NCBI GenBank assembly: GCA_019636625.1
Contig: JAHBXE010000008.1
Coordinates: 1-64,000 of the forward strand
Length of the DNA stretch: 64,000 nucleotides
Origin: Phycisphaeraceae bacterium
Lineage (GTDB): Bacteria; Planctomycetota; Phycisphaerae; Phycisphaerales; UBA1924
Direction: 5' to 3'
Shown here piece by piece: positions 40,178 to 48,104 of the stretch. Both the position numbers and the translations under genes were made by a program. The notes below the pieces were generated by a model. It worked only from the letters and a program-made list of their open reading frames with translations. It was not told where the DNA came from and made no database searches. The stretch's first letter is position 1. Each line of letters starts with the position of its first letter.

Positions 40178-41494
40178 CTACCCCTTCGGCTCCTCCAACC
40201 TGCCCAGCCGCCTCACCTCCGGCCACAACCACGCCACGCCCAGCACGACCAGCACCGTCCCGATCCCTCCGCTCACCACGCTCACGACCGGCCCAAAGAG
40301 CTTCGCCACCAGCCCCGACTCGAACGCACCCAGTTCGTTGCTGCTCTCGATGAACACGCTGTTCACCGCCCCGACCCGGCCCCGCAGGTGGTCCGGCGTC
40401 CGCACCTGCACCAGCACGTGACGCACCACGACGCTGATGTTGTCGAGCCCGCCCAGCAGCGTCAGCATCAACAGAGACAACCCGAACCACTTGGAGAGAC
40501 CGAAGATGATGGTGCACACGCCAAAGCCCGCGACGCTCCACAGCAGGGCCTTGCCCGCGTTGCGAAACGCCGGGCGATGCGCCAGGATCAGTGCCATCAG
40601 GAACGCGCCGACGTACGGGGCCGCCTTGAGCATCCCGAGCCCCACCGGGCCGACCAGCAGAATGTCCTTCGCATAAATCGGCAGCAGCGCCGTCGCCCCG
40701 CCCAGCAGCACGGCGAACAGGTCCAGCGTGATCGTCGCGAGGATCGTCTTCTCCCGCCACACATGCCCGGCCCCATCGAACATCGACCGCACCGTGAAGC
40801 GACCGTTTCGCTTGGGCGCCGGGCGGGGCTGAATCCCGGCCGCGGAAACCGCGAAGATCAGGCACATCACCGCCGCCGCAGCGTACACCGGCCACGCCGC
40901 CTTCGTCGCCGCGATGATCGCCCCGGCGATGATCGGCCCGCCGAACGCCGAGAGCTGGAACACGCCGCTGTTCCAGGTGACCGCGTTGTGGAAGTCGCGC
41001 GGCGGGACGATCGAGGGCAGAAGCGCCGCCCGGGAAGGCCCGTTGAACGACCGCGCGCAACCCGTGAGCATGAGCATGAAGTAGAAGAGCGGCATCGGCG
41101 CCTTCTCGTGCGAGAGCACCGCCAGCAGCCCAAGAAGAACGAAGAACGCCAGTTGCGTCAGCACGAGGATCTTCTTGCGGCTGAACAGGTCGATGGCCTG
41201 CCCGGCCGGCAGCGCCATGATGAGCACGGGTATCGCCCGAGCCAGCCCGATGTAGCCAAGCGCCAGTGCATCGTTCGTCCGCTCGTACACCTCCCACGCG
41301 ACCGCCATGCCCATCATCTGCAGGCCCGTGCTCGACACGACAAATCCGAGCGCAAACCGGCGGTAATTCACGGACCGGATCGCCGCGTACGGATCGTGCG
41401 GACGCGTATCGAGCAGTTCCTCCGCGATCGGCTCCGGTTCAACGGAGGCCCCGGCGGGACGAAGCTCTTCGGTCGGTCGTGGGGTGTCGGACAT
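40178..41494 (-). CDS. MFS transporter, EntS/MFS_3-type
   Basis: A 438-residue transporter with about 11-12 membrane helices. The N-terminal half has RFALGFVVSSTGLQMMGMAVAW-like start features, GLARAIPVLIMALPAGQAIDLFSRKKIL as the loop 2-3 motif, and a C-terminal RTPDHLRGRVGAVNSVFI motif typical of the MFS_3 (enterobactin exporter-like) group. ATG 41494 is preferred to the open frame at 41545. It lies 74 nt after the metal ABC operon on the same strand, so read-through is possible. Substrate unknown; export of a siderophore or small molecule is only a family-level guess. Confidence 0.85.
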   Translation of the reverse strand: MSDTPRPTEELRPAGASVEPEPIAEELLDTRPHDPYAAIRSVNYRRFALGFVVSSTGLQMMGMAVAWEVYERTNDALALGYIGLARAIPVLIMALPAGQAIDLFSRKKILVLTQLAFFVLLGLLAVLSHEKAPMPLFYFMLMLTGCARSFNGPSRAALLPSIVPPRDFHNAVTWNSGVFQLSAFGGPIIAGAIIAATKAAWPVYAAAAVMCLIFAVSAAGIQPRPAPKRNGRFTVRSMFDGAGHVWREKTILATITLDLFAVLLGGATALLPIYAKDILLVGPVGLGMLKAAPYVGAFLMALILAHRPAFRNAGKALLWSVAGFGVCTIIFGLSKWFGLSLLMLTLLGGLDNISVVVRHVLVQVRTPDHLRGRVGAVNSVFIESSNELGAFESGLVAKLFGPVVSVVSGGIGTVLVVLGVAWLWPEVRRLGRLEEPKG

Positions 41495-41568
41495 GAACGT
41501 TTCGGACGCGCTTGAAAGCAGGGGTGAACAACCCGCCTGCCGCATTCAGGTCCGTCGGGTGGAGGGTA

Positions 41569-42891
41569 TCACGTGCGGTCGGCCTGCGAAGGGATGCGCC
41601 TGCCGTGCGGGTCCGTCGCGGAATCACCCTCCGGGCGAACCACGAGATGCTCCAGGCGTTCCGCCGTGTCGTGAACATGATCCGGAGCAACACCAGCCTC
41701 GGTCACGAGATAGCTCTCCCACAAGCGGTGGCGCCGAACCAGGTCGCGGGCCGCAACCTCGCCGACTTCCGTCAATACAACTCGTTCGCCCTGTTGGATC
41801 AGCCCCGTGGCCTCCGCGAGTCGCACGCCCCGCCGCGCCGCTCGTTGCCCGACCAGCGCCGCCACTTCGGCCCTCGTCGGCGCCCCCGCTGCGCCCTCGC
41901 CCCGGCGGTACAGCGCAGCAAGCACATCCTCCATCGCAACCGTTCCCTCCAGCCGTCGCCGACGAACCCACCTTCCGACCACGCCATGCCGCGGCCCGAA
42001 CAGCGCCGCCGCGAGGAACAGCCCGCCCGCCGCCACCGTCATGCCTCCCGCGCTGTTGAGCGACCACGACCTGCCCAGCGCCGCCGGCAGCGCGTTCGCG
42101 CCAAGGTACCCGAGCACCGCCGACGCCGCCGCGATGGCCACGCTCACAACGATCTGAGGGCGAAGCCGGTCCGTCAGCAGCCGCGCCGTCGCCGCCGGGC
42201 AGATCAACATCGCGATCACCAGGATGGAGCCGACCGCCTCGAACGAGGCCACGGTCGCCGCGGCGACAAAGAGCATCAGCAGGAAGTGCATCAACCCGGC
42301 ATGAAACCCCTGCGCTGTAGCCAGCGCCGGATCGAACGCCGCCAGGCGAAGCTCCTTGAAGAGCACCACGACAAATCCCGTCGCCAGCACCGCCATCACC
42401 AGCAGCGTGACTACCTGCCGCGGGACCCGCCCCAGCGTATCGAGCGAGAGGAACCCGCCCCAGGTGTCCGGTGGAAACCAGAAAATCGTGGACAGTTCGC
42501 CGTAGAGCACGCAATCCGGATCGAGGTCAACGCCCGGGATCGAGGCCTGCTCGATCAGCAGCACGCCAAGCGCAAACAAGAGGCTGAAGACGACGCCCAT
42601 CGCGGCGCCCGTCTCGATTCGCCCGATCTTCCGCACCAGTTCAACCAGACCGACGGTGACAACGCCCGCCGCCGCGGCGCCGATGAACATCGGCCCCGGG
42701 CTTCGCGAGTGCGTGATCAAGAACGCCGCGACCAGCCCGGGCAGCACCGAGTGCGAAATCGCATCGCCCATCAGGCTCAGCTTCCGCAGGATCAGGAAGT
42801 TCCCCAGCAGCCCGCACAGCACGGCGGCCAGCAGCCCCGCCGCCAGCGGCATCGCGTCCAGTTGCAGGAAGTTGTGAACCACGGGGCTCAC
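41569..42891 (-). CDS. Metal ABC transporter permease fused to a DtxR-like domain
   Basis: A 440-residue protein. Residues 1 to about 300 are an ABC-3 (ZnuB/MntB/TroD-type) permease with about eight helices (GDAISHSVLPGLVAAF). Residues about 318-420 match the DtxR/MntR fold: a winged-helix segment, then LTEVGEVAARDLVRRHRLWE and HVHDTAERLEHL. These keep the His and Glu of the ancillary metal site (His388, Glu392), and Glu replaces the DtxR-type Cys, as in MntR. The start overlaps the other permease by 4 nt. It should form half of the membrane channel for Mn or Fe while its cytoplasmic domain senses the metal; the sensing is inference. Confidence 0.9.
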   Translation of the reverse strand: MSPVVHNFLQLDAMPLAAGLLAAVLCGLLGNFLILRKLSLMGDAISHSVLPGLVAAFLITHSRSPGPMFIGAAAAGVVTVGLVELVRKIGRIETGAAMGVVFSLLFALGVLLIEQASIPGVDLDPDCVLYGELSTIFWFPPDTWGGFLSLDTLGRVPRQVVTLLVMAVLATGFVVVLFKELRLAAFDPALATAQGFHAGLMHFLLMLFVAAATVASFEAVGSILVIAMLICPAATARLLTDRLRPQIVVSVAIAAASAVLGYLGANALPAALGRSWSLNSAGGMTVAAGGLFLAAALFGPRHGVVGRWVRRRRLEGTVAMEDVLAALYRRGEGAAGAPTRAEVAALVGQRAARRGVRLAEATGLIQQGERVVLTEVGEVAARDLVRRHRLWESYLVTEAGVAPDHVHDTAERLEHLVVRPEGDSATDPHGRRIPSQADRT

Positions 42892-44264
42892 GCCCGGCCT
42901 CCCACGCCGGGATGCACCCCGGCGGCATCGCTGTTGACCGAAATCGCGACTCCCTTCGCCGCCAGCTCCGCCTCAAGCGAAGCGACAAGCTCCTCGGAGA
43001 GCACATGCACGACCTGATCCACCGACCAATCAACATGGCTGGGCGCCACATCGGCATGGCTGATCAGGTACTGCTCCCACAAACGGTGATTGCGGTGAAT
43101 GCGTGCCCCTTCTTCACGCCCTCGATCGGTGAGCGCAACTTCCCCCGCCCGCCGGGTCAGGAGCCCCTTTGCCCGCAGCCGCGCGAGAGTCATCTCCCGG
43201 AACACACCGGACCAGCCGCGAGCGACCCCGAATCGCTCCTTGTCCGCCAACGCGAGGCGGCCGCCCGCCTCGTACGCCGCCTCCACCACATGGTCCCCGG
43301 CGATGCGGAACCGCTGCGATCCCCGGCGCCAGGCAGCCGCCACCACGCCACGCGAAGGCGCCATCAGCATGCTCAGCATGAACAGCGCGCCGGATGTGAG
43401 GACAATCACCGATCCCGCCGGCTTCCGCGGAAACAGCGACGACACAACCGAGCCGAAGTACCCGCTAAGCCCGCCGATGATCGCTGCGAGGATCACCAGC
43501 GTGCGGAGACGATCCGTCCAGAACCTCGCGGCGACCGGCGGGATGATGAGCATCGACACGACCAGAATGAGCCCGACCGCCTGCAGCCCCGCCACCGTCA
43601 CAAGCACGACCAGCGCCATCATCAGCAAGTCGATGAGCGTCACCGGCCACCCCCCCACCTTCGCGAACGCATCGTTGAAGGCGACGAGCGCAAACTCCTT
43701 GAACAGCAGCCCAGCCGCCGCCACCGCCGCCAGGGCAAGCCCCGCCATGAGCGCGACATCGCCCAGGCTCATCGCCGCCGTCTGCCCGTAGATGAACGCC
43801 TTGATTCCCCCTTGGTTCCCACCCTTCATCGTCTGGATGTAGCTCAGCAGCACCACGCCGACGCCGAAGAACACGCTCAGCACGATCCCGATCGCTGCAT
43901 CCTCGTGCAGCCGCGTCCGCCGAAGAATCCACTGCACGCACAGCACACCAAGCACGCCCGTCGCCGCGGCCCCCGTCAGCAGCACGGGGAGCGACCGCCC
44001 CTCAACGCCCAGGCCCGCCGCGATGATGAACACCAGCCCGATGCCCGGGAGCGTCGCGTGCGCCAGCGCATCGGCCATCAGCGCCCGCTTGCGCAGAAGC
44101 CCGAACACCCCGACAATCCCCGCCGCGATGCCCAGCAGCGTCGTTCCCGCCACCACGATCGCCGTGTTGTATCCCGCGCGGAACAGCAGCGCGTCAACGG
44201 CTTCCCGCGCCGTCGGCCACGCCTCAGCGCTCCGACCCAGACTTGTTTGGGCGCACAGCCACAC
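42888..44264 (-). CDS. Metal ABC transporter permease fused to a DtxR-like domain
   Basis: A 458-residue protein. Residues about 30-305 form an ABC-3 permease (LMADALAHATLPGIGLVF). Residues about 320-440 are a DtxR-like module with a helix-turn-helix region and LTDRGREEGARIHRNHRLWE followed by HVDWSVDQVVHVLSEEL. The HRLWE His/Glu pair is kept, but the second metal half-site is weaker than in the partner permease (Asp for Cys/Glu, Val for Glu). GTG 44264 has GGAGG about 10 nt upstream. The two permeases probably make a heterodimer, bringing two DtxR-like modules together as in the soluble repressor dimer. Confidence 0.9.
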   Translation of the reverse strand: MWLCAQTSLGRSAEAWPTAREAVDALLFRAGYNTAIVVAGTTLLGIAAGIVGVFGLLRKRALMADALAHATLPGIGLVFIIAAGLGVEGRSLPVLLTGAAATGVLGVLCVQWILRRTRLHEDAAIGIVLSVFFGVGVVLLSYIQTMKGGNQGGIKAFIYGQTAAMSLGDVALMAGLALAAVAAAGLLFKEFALVAFNDAFAKVGGWPVTLIDLLMMALVVLVTVAGLQAVGLILVVSMLIIPPVAARFWTDRLRTLVILAAIIGGLSGYFGSVVSSLFPRKPAGSVIVLTSGALFMLSMLMAPSRGVVAAAWRRGSQRFRIAGDHVVEAAYEAGGRLALADKERFGVARGWSGVFREMTLARLRAKGLLTRRAGEVALTDRGREEGARIHRNHRLWEQYLISHADVAPSHVDWSVDQVVHVLSEELVASLEAELAAKGVAISVNSDAAGVHPGVGGRA

Positions 44265-44269
44265 GCCGC

Positions 44270-45097
44270 TCAGCCTCCCCCGCCGCCCGCACGCGCCACC
44301 GCCTCCGCCGCCTCGGCCAGCAGCGTCAGCCGGCCACCGTACGTCTTGTGAAGGTTCTCCCGCGTAAAGACCTCGCCCACCGGCCCCGCCGCGACCACCC
44401 GCATGTTGATCAGCATCACGTGGTCAAAGTACTCCGCCACCGTCTGCAAGTCGTGGTGGACGCAGATCACCGTCTTGCCGCCCCGCTTGAGCTCCCGCAG
44501 AACCTCCACGATGGCCCGCTCCGTCGCGGCATCCACACCCGCGAACGGTTCATCCATGAAGTACAGGTCCGCTTCCTGCGCCAGCGCCCGGGCCAGGAAC
44601 ACCCGCTGCTGCTGCCCCCCCGAAAGCTGGCTGATCTGCCGATCCGCCAGCGGCAACATCCCCACCCGCGCCAGGCACTCCATCCCCGCCCGCTTGTGCG
44701 CCCGCGACACCGGCCGGCACCACCCGATCTTGTGGTACCGTCCCATGCACACCACGTCCAGCGCCGACACCGGAAAGTCCCAGTCCACGCTCTCCCGCTG
44801 CGGCACATACCCCACCCGCCCGCGGACCCGGCGGTACGGGCTCCCCCAGAACTCCACGAGCCCCGACGCCCGCGGCACCAGGTCAAGGCACGCCTTGATC
44901 AGCGTGCTCTTCCCCGCCCCGTTGGGGCCGACAATGGCCACCAGCGCATTGGCCGGCGCGTCGTAGTCCACATCCCACAGCACCGGCTTGTGGTGGTACG
45001 CCACCGTCATCGCGTGGATCGACAGCGGGCTCTGCGCCGAGTGCTCCGGGCGAGCATCGAGCCGAGATCCGTCTGATTTCGACGCGGCCGTTGTCAC
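44270..45097 (-). CDS. Metal ABC transporter ATP-binding protein
   Basis: A 275-residue ATPase: Walker [11 protein letters not shown]-loop VPQRESVDW, signature LSGGQQQR, Walker B DLYFMDEP and switch His in CVHHD are all present. It is of the MntA/TroB/ZnuC type. The [16 protein letters not shown] segment is typical of manganese/iron importers. An extra 25-residue polar N-terminus precedes the core. It overlaps the binding-protein gene by 4 nt and is 5 nt from the next permease, so the four genes form one transcript. Confidence 0.94.
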
Positions 45098-46074
45098 TTG
45101 GAGAGCTTCCCCGCCATCCCCTTCTCCGGAACCTCGCCGCCCAGCGCCCGCGCGATCGTCGTCACGTTGTGATCGATCATCCCGATGTACGTCCCCTCGT
45201 ACGTGCCGGGTGCTCCCATCGCATCGCTGAACAACTCCCCGCCGATCTTCACCTCATGCCCACGCGCCTTGGCCCCGGCCAGCAGCGCCCGGATGTTCCG
45301 GTCCGAAACCGTCGATTCCACGAACACCGCGCCGATCTTCCGGTCCACCAGCAGCTTCACGATCCGCTCCACATCCTTCAGCCCCGCCTCCGATTCCGTC
45401 GAGATCCCCTGGATCCCCACCACCTCGTACCCGTACCGCCGCCCGAAGTACCCGAACGCATCGTGCGCCGTCACCAGCACACGCCGCCCCTCCGGCACGC
45501 TCCCCAGCACGCGCTCCGCGTACGCGTGGAGCCCGTCCAGTTCCTTCAGATAGGCCGCGGCGTTCGCGCGGTATGCATCCCGCCCCGCCGGGTCCGCCTC
45601 CGAGAGCTTGTCACGCACCACCTCAACAGCCTTCGCCCATGCCAACGGGTCCATCCACACATGCGGGTCGGGATGGCCTTCCAGGTGCCGCGGCTCCACG
45701 ATGTACCGCTCGTCGAGCAGCTCCGTCACGGCGTGCACCTTCCGACCCGACGTGGCGACCCGGATCAGCGCATCGGTCATCTTCCCCTCGAGCAGCAACC
45801 CGTTGTACAGCACCACATCCGCCTTCATCAGCTGCTGGATGTCCGCCCGGCTTGGCTTGTACAGGTGCGGGTCCACTCCCTCCCCCATCAGCCCGATCAC
45901 GGTCGCCCGATCTCCGGCCACCGCCCGGGCGATGTCCGTCACCATCCCCACCGTCGTCACCACGGTCAGTCTCGGCTCCGGCCCCTTCGGCCCCGCGCCG
46001 ACCAAAACCCCCGCCAACGCGACCCCCGCCGCCGCCAGAACCCACATCATCACCCGCCCGTAAAATGTAGCCAT
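45094..46074 (-). CDS. Manganese-type metal-binding protein of ABC importer
   Basis: A 326-residue cluster A-I (TroA/PsaA/MntC) solute-binding protein. The four metal ligands are His in GVDPHLYKP, His in DPHVWMD, Glu in VFVESTVSD and Asp in GMIDHN. This is the H-H-E-D set of Mn(II)/Fe(II) binders rather than the three-His set of zinc binders. There is no zinc-type His-rich loop. It has an N-terminal hydrophobic signal (about 8-28) without a lipobox. ATG 46074 lies exactly at the predicted transcription start; GTG 46053 or ATG 46050 would still leave a shortened signal peptide. Confidence 0.93.
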
Positions 46075-46083
46075 GGCTACATT
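46064..46083. promoter_or_regulatory. 20-bp perfect palindrome, candidate MntR/DtxR-family operator
   Basis: AATGTAGCCATGGCTACATT is an exact inverted repeat of 20 bp. It covers the end of the -10 hexamer, the predicted transcription start and the start codon of the binding-protein gene. The half-site AAYRTAGC is shared with the E. coli MntR box (AACATAGC...GCTATGTT), with a comparable half-site layout. A protein bound here would block RNA polymerase. Candidate binders are a DtxR/MntR-family repressor encoded elsewhere or the DtxR-like domains of the two permeases. Confidence 0.75.
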
Positions 46084-46109
46084 ATCGGCAGAGCCGCCAC
46101 CAGAGTCAA
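46081..46109 (-). promoter_or_regulatory. Sigma-70 promoter of the metal ABC operon
   Basis: Minus-strand TTGACT (46109-46104) and GATAAT (46086-46081) are separated by exactly 17 bp, close to the sigma-70 consensus and rare in this GC-rich sequence. The seventh base after the -10 is 46074, the A of the ATG of the binding-protein gene, so a leaderless transcript is predicted. The -10 overlaps the palindrome at 46064-46083. Confidence 0.8.
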
Positions 46110-46385
46110 AAGTACGCCGATTTCCTCGCTTTCATGCCCCCAAACCCCCGTCCTCAGTCCCCTCCACCCGTCCGGTGCGTGCAGAGCGTGCATTAAGGGA
46201 CCTTCCCGTGCGTTGGGCACCCCGGCTCGTTCAGGAGACTTGCCCCCGCACCGCTGAACCGACTGCGCCAGCCAACGCAAAGGCCCCGATTCGCCAGTCC
46301 GGCGCCACATTTGAATCGGCGCCGTCATCCAGTTCAACCCGCACGCCGCACGTCACGTGCTCGACCACCGACTCGGAACCCACCA
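46110..46385. other. Intergenic region between divergent ABC operon and CotH gene
   Basis: About 276 bases with no convincing gene. The 86-residue minus-strand frame across it starts with no Shine-Dalgarno and runs through the promoter, so it is rejected. The CotH gene start has no clear Shine-Dalgarno. No second palindrome or structured RNA was noticed. Confidence 0.5.
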
Positions 46386-48104
46386 ATGAAACATCTCCTC
46401 GTGGTGACCTGCCTCGCTCTTGCCTCCGTCGCCGCCGCGCAACCCGACGACGTCCGCCCGCCGCGCGGCGATGGCCCCCGAGGCGGCGGCCCCGGCGGCA
46501 TGGGCGGCCCCGGCATGATGATGCAGGACCGCGAAATCCTCTCCCGCTTCGACACCGACGGTGACGGCATCCTCAACAAGGCCGAACGCGCCGAAGCCCG
46601 CAAGTTCATGCAGGAAGAAACCTCCCGACGCCCCCGCCGCGGCGGAGGCATGGGGGGCGGCCCCGGTGGAGGTCCCGGCGGCCCGCCCGGCATGGAGCGC
46701 CCGGCCAGCTCGCCCGGCCCACGCATCGCCAAGTCGGACGTCGCGCCCGCCATCGGCGGCCTCTACGACCCCGATGTATACCGCACCATCTTCCTCGACT
46801 TCGAGAGCGACGACTGGGAGGCCGAACTCTCCGACTTCATCCGCACCGACGTCGAGGTCCCCGCCACCATGACCGTCGACGGCAAGACCTATCCCAATGT
46901 CGGCGTCAGCTTCCGCGGCGCCAGCTCATTGATGATGGTCCCCGCCGGCTCCAAGCGCTCCTTCAACATCTCCGTGGACTACGCCGACAAGAACCAGCGC
47001 CTCCTCGGCGTCAAGACTCTCAACCTCCTCAACGCCAACGGCGATCCCTCACTCATGCGGGGGCCGCTGTTCGCCCACATCGCTTCTGCGCTGAAGATCC
47101 CGGCCCCTCGAGTCAACTTCGTCCGCGTCGTCGTCAACGGCGAGAGCTGGGGCGTGTACCAGAACGCCGAGCAGTTCGACAAAATCATGATCGAACATCG
47201 CTTCGGGTCGTCCAAGGGCGCCCGCTGGAAAGTCCCCGGCAGCCCGCAGGGCCGCGGCGGCCTCGAGTACCTTGGCGAAGACATTGAGCCCTACCGCCGC
47301 CGCTACGAGATCAAGTCCAAGGACGATGCCAAGTCCTGGCGAGCCCTGATCGACCTCTGCCGCACGCTCAACGAAACGCCGACGGACGAACTCGAAGCCG
47401 CTCTCAAGCCCAAGTTGGACATCGAAGGAACGCTGTGGTTCCTGGCCCTCGATGTCGCGACATCCAACGAAGACGGCTACTGGGTCCGCGCCAGTGACTA
47501 CTCCATCTACTTGGATGAGAAGGGCATATTCCACATCCTCCCCCACGATGCAAACGAAACCTTCCTGCCCGGCGGTGGCCGCGGCCCCGGAGGCCGAGGT
47601 GGCCCGCCGGGCGGCCCCGGCGCCCCACCCGGAGGCCCGGGTGCCGAACGGGACGGACCAGATCGCGAACCTCCGCGCGAACGCCCCGCGGGACAGCCAG
47701 GCGCCGACCGCCCCGCGCTCGCCCGCGCCAGCGGCCAGGTCGATCCCCTCGTCGCGCTCGACGACTCAACCAAGCCCCTGCGCAGCCGCCTGCTCAAAGT
47801 TCCCGCTCTGCGCGAAAGCTACCTGCGAAAGGTCCGCTCCATAGCCCAGACCTGGCTCGATTGGGACACGCTCGGCCCCATCGCCGAACGCTACCGCGCC
47901 CTCATCGATGCGGAGGTCAAAGCCGACACCCGCAAACTCTCTTCCTACGAAGCCTTCACACGTTCCATCACGGCCACCCAACCCGAAGGCGAAGCCCGCG
48001 GCCGCAACCGCCCATCGCTCGAACAGTTCACCCGCCAGCGACGGGAGTACCTCTTGAACCACCCCGCGATCAAGGAACTCGCCGAACCCAAGGACCCCGC
48101 CTGA
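46386..48104 (+). CDS. CotH-type protein kinase with EF-hand, secreted
   Basis: A 572-residue protein from ATG 46386, which opens a signal peptide cleaved near AAAQ (residue 19). An EF-hand calcium loop DTDGDGILNKAE lies at about residues 56-67, between Gly/Pro-rich stretches. Residues about 130-390 are a CotH kinase domain (VGVSFRGASSLM, KRSFNISVDY, GVYQNAEQFDK, ILPHDANETF). CotH proteins phosphorylate extracellular proteins. A Gly/Pro/Arg-rich insert of about 60 residues follows the ILPHDANETF motif. The open frame starts at 46311, but the added segment has no signal. Likely substrate: a secreted matrix or surface protein, unidentified. Confidence 0.88.
   Translation: MKHLLVVTCLALASVAAAQPDDVRPPRGDGPRGGGPGGMGGPGMMMQDREILSRFDTDGDGILNKAERAEARKFMQEETSRRPRRGGGMGGGPGGGPGGPPGMERPASSPGPRIAKSDVAPAIGGLYDPDVYRTIFLDFESDDWEAELSDFIRTDVEVPATMTVDGKTYPNVGVSFRGASSLMMVPAGSKRSFNISVDYADKNQRLLGVKTLNLLNANGDPSLMRGPLFAHIASALKIPAPRVNFVRVVVNGESWGVYQNAEQFDKIMIEHRFGSSKGARWKVPGSPQGRGGLEYLGEDIEPYRRRYEIKSKDDAKSWRALIDLCRTLNETPTDELEAALKPKLDIEGTLWFLALDVATSNEDGYWVRASDYSIYLDEKGIFHILPHDANETFLPGGGRGPGGRGGPPGGPGAPPGGPGAERDGPDREPPRERPAGQPGADRPALARASGQVDPLVALDDSTKPLRSRLLKVPALRESYLRKVRSIAQTWLDWDTLGPIAERYRALIDAEVKADTRKLSSYEAFTRSITATQPEGEARGRNRPSLEQFTRQRREYLLNHPAIKELAEPKDPA

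Follow-up and report, generated by a model that had tools for sequence, protein, structure and literature searches.

A predicted MntR operator centred on the start codon of a probably leaderless, putative manganese-importer operon in a family of Planctomycetota

The genes of a metal ABC importer were identified in a window of 64,000 nucleotides (the whole stretch of DNA analysed here) from the genome of a Phycisphaeraceae bacterium. The assembly groups with Phycisphaerales (Planctomycetota), MAGs of this order making up most of its nearest named relatives. The minus-strand operon opens at ATG46074 and encodes a binding protein, an ABC ATPase and two ABC-3 permeases. The features of the locus are as follows.

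41569-42891, minus strand: second ABC-3 permease with a C-terminal DtxR metal-binding/dimerisation domain (Pfam domain search)
42888-44264, minus strand: ABC-3 permease (PF00950) with a C-terminal DtxR metal-binding/dimerisation domain (PF02742)
44270-45097, minus strand: ATPase of the ABC importer, whose best NCBIfam matches (Deinococcus MntA and Mn/Fe ATP-binding protein) fall below cut-off
45094-46074, minus strand: metal-binding protein of an ABC importer, ZnuA/MntC type (Pfam PF01297)
46045-46050, minus strand: two further in-frame ATGs in tandem, 24 and 27 nt past ATG46074, as alternative starts; neither has a Shine-Dalgarno sequence (SD)
46064-46083, palindromic: perfect 20-bp palindrome AATGTAGCCATGGCTACATT, predicted MntR operator (MntR box) from motif conservation and MntR co-occurrence
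46072-46074, minus strand: ATG spanning the operator dyad; A46074 is the proposed +1 of a leaderless mRNA that would start with this codon
46081-46086, minus strand: -10 hexamer GATAAT, overlapping the left operator arm by 3 bp and 6 nt from the ATG
46104-46109, minus strand: -35 hexamer TTGACT, 5/6 match to TTGACA, 17-nt spacer

Downstream of the second permease gene, after a gap of 23 bp, is a gene for an EntS-like MFS transporter (40178-41545, minus strand), possibly part of the same operon. No Nramp gene was found in the window's genome (assembly 94% complete).

Direct reading of the minus strand from 46110 to 46060 gave TTGACT-17-GATAAT-GTAGCC-ATGGCTACATTTTAC, which confirmed both the promoter hexamers with 17-bp spacing described in the initial annotation and the perfect 20-bp palindrome centred on the ATG of the binding-protein gene. 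A promoter scan found no other sigma-70-like promoter between 42000 and 48000 (0.2 expected from shuffles). The dyad of the palindrome falls between A46074 and T46073, inside the ATG, and its right half-site encodes Met-Ala-Thr-Phe. It had also been claimed that counting from the -10 places the predicted +1 on the A of this ATG; A46074 does lie at a normal +1 distance, 7 nt past the end of the -10 hexamer (6 nt between). On the plus strand, an open reading frame of 163 codons (46073-46564) begins at the ATG that the palindrome mirrors onto this strand and is most likely a by-product of the palindrome. In RNA folding, a transcript starting upstream would put an operator hairpin around the AUG, and in one beginning at A46074 the AUG stays unpaired; the z-scores were unremarkable, and folding was therefore given no weight as evidence.

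The palindrome occurs once in the 3.7-Mb assembly, and allowing three mismatches adds no further site. Sequence of the window's length and composition is expected to contain 0.14 perfect 20-bp palindromes and one was found, so that the palindrome by itself is only moderately surprising. This expectation is what speaks for a chance palindrome at a start codon beside an unrelated promoter-like sequence. What places the palindrome beyond chance is its conservation in relatives. Among 163 genomes of the family, 135 encode the binding protein, and upstream DNA was usable for 109 of these, the window's own included. The motif was present at 88 of the 109 orthologous operons and in 0 of 109 shuffled regions. 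Together with the co-occurrence of box and MntR described below, this refutes coincidence as far as the operator is concerned and makes it scarcely credible as an account of the locus.

The consensus drawn from 62 boxes is AATGTAGCC..GGCTACATT, with information only within about ±11 bp of the dyad. The motif built from the family scores 35.1 at 46064-46083, the only site above 12 in 336 kb. Across the family the site was found at predicted manganese-uptake genes: at the ABC operon in the 88 loci and, in two genomes that lack both the binding protein and the ABC operon (G041 and G080), at an Nramp gene. The Nramp-associated boxes were seen at L269 (2020-2180) and L270 (2010-2180), the former again with an in-frame ATG in the box centre. 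Several family genomes carry second MntR boxes at predicted outer-membrane proteins (L262, L263, L264, L267, L271, L273, L275, L276, L277). Four of the proteins tested match PF13557 and one OprB, and other sites adjoin similar-looking frames; these proteins are candidate manganese porins of the MntR regulon. At four loci (L045, L054, L075, L081) two MntR boxes overlap head to tail with CATG in common, which suggests two dimers. An iron box of the DtxR/IdeR type (a TTAGGNNAGNNNNNCCTAA-type 19-mer) was considered and rejected, the palindrome having GTAGC-N4-GCTAC instead (DtxR sites from PMC1382209).

Proteins with PF02742 in the window's genome comprise the two permease fusions and a single 143-aa MntR, encoded on another contig (G000:C38:158138-158566) and thus unlinked to the operon. 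This protein passes the NCBIfam MntR equivalog model (167.8 vs. 153 bits), and its best PDB match is E. coli MntR (2h09). In the PDB-match alignment, the residues aligned to the Mn ligands of B. subtilis MntR are conserved. Autoregulation of mntR was rejected for this genome, as no site at the mntR locus scores over background.

The box was detected in 85 of 91 genomes with a close E. coli-type MntR and in 0 of 14 with only a distant DtxR-type regulator, a longer protein than MntR (Fisher test, p = 4e-13, for genomes that share ancestry). In the remaining 6 of the 91 MntR-bearing genomes no box was found at the binding-protein operon. Box-less genomes (G049, G153, G113, G146, G045 and others) have the longer, canonical DtxR-type regulator, often encoded beside the binding-protein gene; in these the regulator was apparently replaced and the operator changed along with it. 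Loss of the palindrome from related operons, which the initial annotation had regarded as telling against its reading, thus does occur in some genomes, and is largely explained by the replacement of MntR with another DtxR-type regulator.

Both permeases of the operon end in PF02742, and in Chlamydia the DtxR-like YtgR is released from the permease YtgC by cleavage and then acts as repressor of the operon that encodes it (PMC5599777, PMC6504234). We therefore considered that the palindrome might be bound not by free-standing MntR but by the permease-fused DtxR-like domains, which proteolysis would free in the way suggested for Chlamydia YtgCR. Against this, Pfam did not detect the DtxR DNA-binding domain PF01325 in either window permease, and the domains may sense metal instead of binding DNA. 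Frames of permease length with PF02742 are also present in box-less genomes such as G049, G153, G113 and G013, which additionally carry a canonical DtxR-type regulator, so the box follows MntR and not the fusion; moreover, it stands at Nramp genes in genomes that have no such operon. Binding by the fused domains is accordingly very improbable. The assignment of the palindrome to an MntR-type operator, as first proposed from the window, has strong support in the conservation of the motif, its co-occurrence with MntR and the Nramp-gene boxes that occur without the ABC operon, and we treat the palindrome below as a predicted MntR operator.

The evidence on a leaderless start was taken first of all from the window's own genome, using 336 kb from two contigs and a home-made gene caller. 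The sequence TANNNT was found 5-8 nt before the ATG at 35 of 351 gene starts and at 4 of 1719 internal ATGs. This is an enrichment of about 40-fold, with a peak spacing of 6 nt, the same as at ATG46074. A second gene-caller run gave a leaderless-type signature for 36 of 249 genes (about one in seven), and five other genomes of the family showed the same trend. The signature was seen at loci on contigs C40 and C38 (L225-L241) and, within the window, at ATG 49662 of a metH-like open reading frame and at ATG 48158, for example.

The main competitor keeps the MntR operator and adds an ordinary short leader: transcription would begin near the dyad, translation would start independently of an SD at ATG46050 or ATG46047, and the ATG in the operator would be incidental. 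Several observations are in its favor. The ATG-ATG 24 nt downstream yields a hydrophobic signal peptide, the box lies upstream of a leader in most relatives, and half of the relatives' box-centre ATGs are out of frame. On the other hand, an SD was looked for at ATG46074, ATG46050 and ATG46047 and found at none of them, whereas 55 of the 73 loci that have a box and an ATG 15-80 nt beyond it carry one. The long and short forms of the binding protein differ in the signal peptide alone, and only the long form has a positive residue (Arg7) before the hydrophobic stretch; the signal n-region of the shorter forms is without this Arg. An AUG at the 5' end, 6 nt from the -10, fits the leaderless genes of this genome, and two relatives have no other start at all. 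A short leader is on balance unlikely, and a leaderless start at ATG46074 is well supported by these sequence features.

Further evidence comes from the position of the promoter relative to the box in relatives. The initial annotation had proposed a scan for a palindrome conserved at the same distance from the -10. The palindrome is conserved as stated above, but a fixed promoter-operator distance had to be rejected for the family: at least three registers exist, with -10 starts clustering at -13, -11 and +4 from the dyad and occurring elsewhere as well. Where the -10 starts 12-15 nt before the dyad, which puts +1 on the dyad, an in-frame dyad ATG is present in 6 of 7 loci, compared with 11 of 91 sites elsewhere (p = 7e-5, for register classes defined after inspection of the data and for related genomes that are not independent). 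A box-centre ATG is in part a by-product of the motif itself; 23 of 46 such ATGs are in frame (p = 0.014 against one third). Given the post hoc class and the ATGs favored by the motif, the coupling between register and ATG is strong but not conclusive.

The six coupled loci belong to G000, G101, G037, G139, G038 and G108. In G037 and G108 the dyad ATG is the sole possible start, there being no other ATG, GTG or TTG; G101 is ambiguous because an alternative ATG with GGAG lies 30 nt downstream. The six genomes span five genera (g1, g20, g56, g60, g67) and are scattered on a poorly resolved binding-protein tree. On this tree, in which few deep branches are resolved, the leaderless label takes 6 changes (2 forced), no better than shuffled labels, and a single origin could therefore not be shown. 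In most relatives the operator is followed by a leader, an SD and an ATG, and the fusion of operator and start is thus a recurring variant. The leaderless start put forward in the initial annotation gains from the genome-wide spacing of -10 and ATG, from alternative starts without SD and from the coupling of register and ATG; it does not extend to most relatives, which have a conventional SD leader.

Taken together, 46064-46083 is probably an MntR operator placed on the start of a putative manganese ABC-importer operon, whose message would be leaderless from about A46074. Anatomy, motif conservation, MntR co-occurrence and the leaderless signature of the genome were computed, and from them we infer that binding depends on manganese and occludes the promoter, where exactly the 5' end lies and that the dyad AUG is the start of translation. 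When Mn(II) is sufficient, Mn-loaded MntR from the unlinked gene would sit on the palindrome; since the operator reaches from the last bases of the -10 across the transcription start, RNA polymerase would be excluded and the importer operon would be off. When manganese is scarce, MntR would leave, and transcription would begin at A46074 or within a nucleotide or two of it. The message would start with AUG, or almost so, and would be translated without an SD into the signal-peptide-bearing binding protein. With +1 on the dyad, the right half-site would double as codons 1-4 and the mRNA would hold just half of the inverted repeat.

A broader proposal, to which we give an even chance, is that operator, transcription start and start codon form one dual-coding 20-bp element in this family, an element that several separate lineages have acquired or retained. 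The register with +1 on the dyad would be coupled with an in-frame AUG, the right half-site would be read by both MntR and the ribosome, and about one in seven genes would have a leaderless-type start. As a minimal natural case, one 20-bp element would serve as operator, transcription start and coding start, so that regulation and coding would constrain the same bases. The findings extend the predicted E. coli-type MntR regulon to a large family of Planctomycetota, in which the motif and the phylogenetic profile can be tested at once, and they point, at the level of sequence, to leaderless genes being common in it.

A limited literature search on MntR sites in Planctomycetes gave nothing relevant. 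As far as that search shows, each of the ingredients is known, and what is new is that they are combined in Planctomycetota, with the dyad placed on the AUG. The predicted MntR operator appears to be real and the leaderless start probable, in what we regard as a variant of a known arrangement and not a wholly new type; the predicted fusion of operator and start recurs in scattered relatives and, within the same limits, is new to the group.

The closest known sites are the MntR boxes of gamma-proteobacteria (E. coli mntH and mntS). The half-site AAYRTAGC, which the initial annotation had noted as common to the palindrome and the E. coli MntR box, is indeed shared, since AACATAGCAAAGGCTATGTT was read upstream of mntH in MG1655. 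As in E. coli, there is a 20-bp palindrome with an RTAGC-N4-GCTAY core, an E. coli-type MntR in the genome and, as predicted here, a site upstream of a manganese importer. The outer half-site is AATGTAGC here and AACATAGC in the E. coli boxes; the start codon is covered by the site here but follows it by about 14-33 bp at E. coli mntH; the phylum is another, and an ABC operon is controlled. When E. coli fragments were scanned with the planctomycete motif, the site upstream of mntS ranked first (10.9) and that of mntH second (9.9), behind an unrelated site (10.4), which is consistent but not decisive.

In C. glutamicum, cg0527 is leaderless with its mapped +1 on the A of the ATG and a DtxR site in its promoter, and the DtxR sites of cg3404, cg0160 and cg2311 are listed as overlapping start codons (PMC1382209). 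The likeness is a DtxR-family site inside the promoter of a leaderless-type gene, predicted here; the regulator subfamily and the motif differ, the cg0527 site is 11 nt upstream of the ATG, and no example of a dyad on a leaderless ATG was found among the DtxR sites of that study (PMC1382209). The ytg locus of Chlamydia, from the same superphylum, is likewise a metal ABC operon in which a permease carries a fused DtxR-like domain (PMC5599777, PMC6504234), whereas here the domain is on both permeases and a separate MntR is present, which the operator tracks. Mapped leaderless messages also occur in the repressor-controlled cI/cro region of phage PY54; the repressors there are of the phage lambda type, and the distance between operator and cro promoter reaches 40 bp (PMC4488713).
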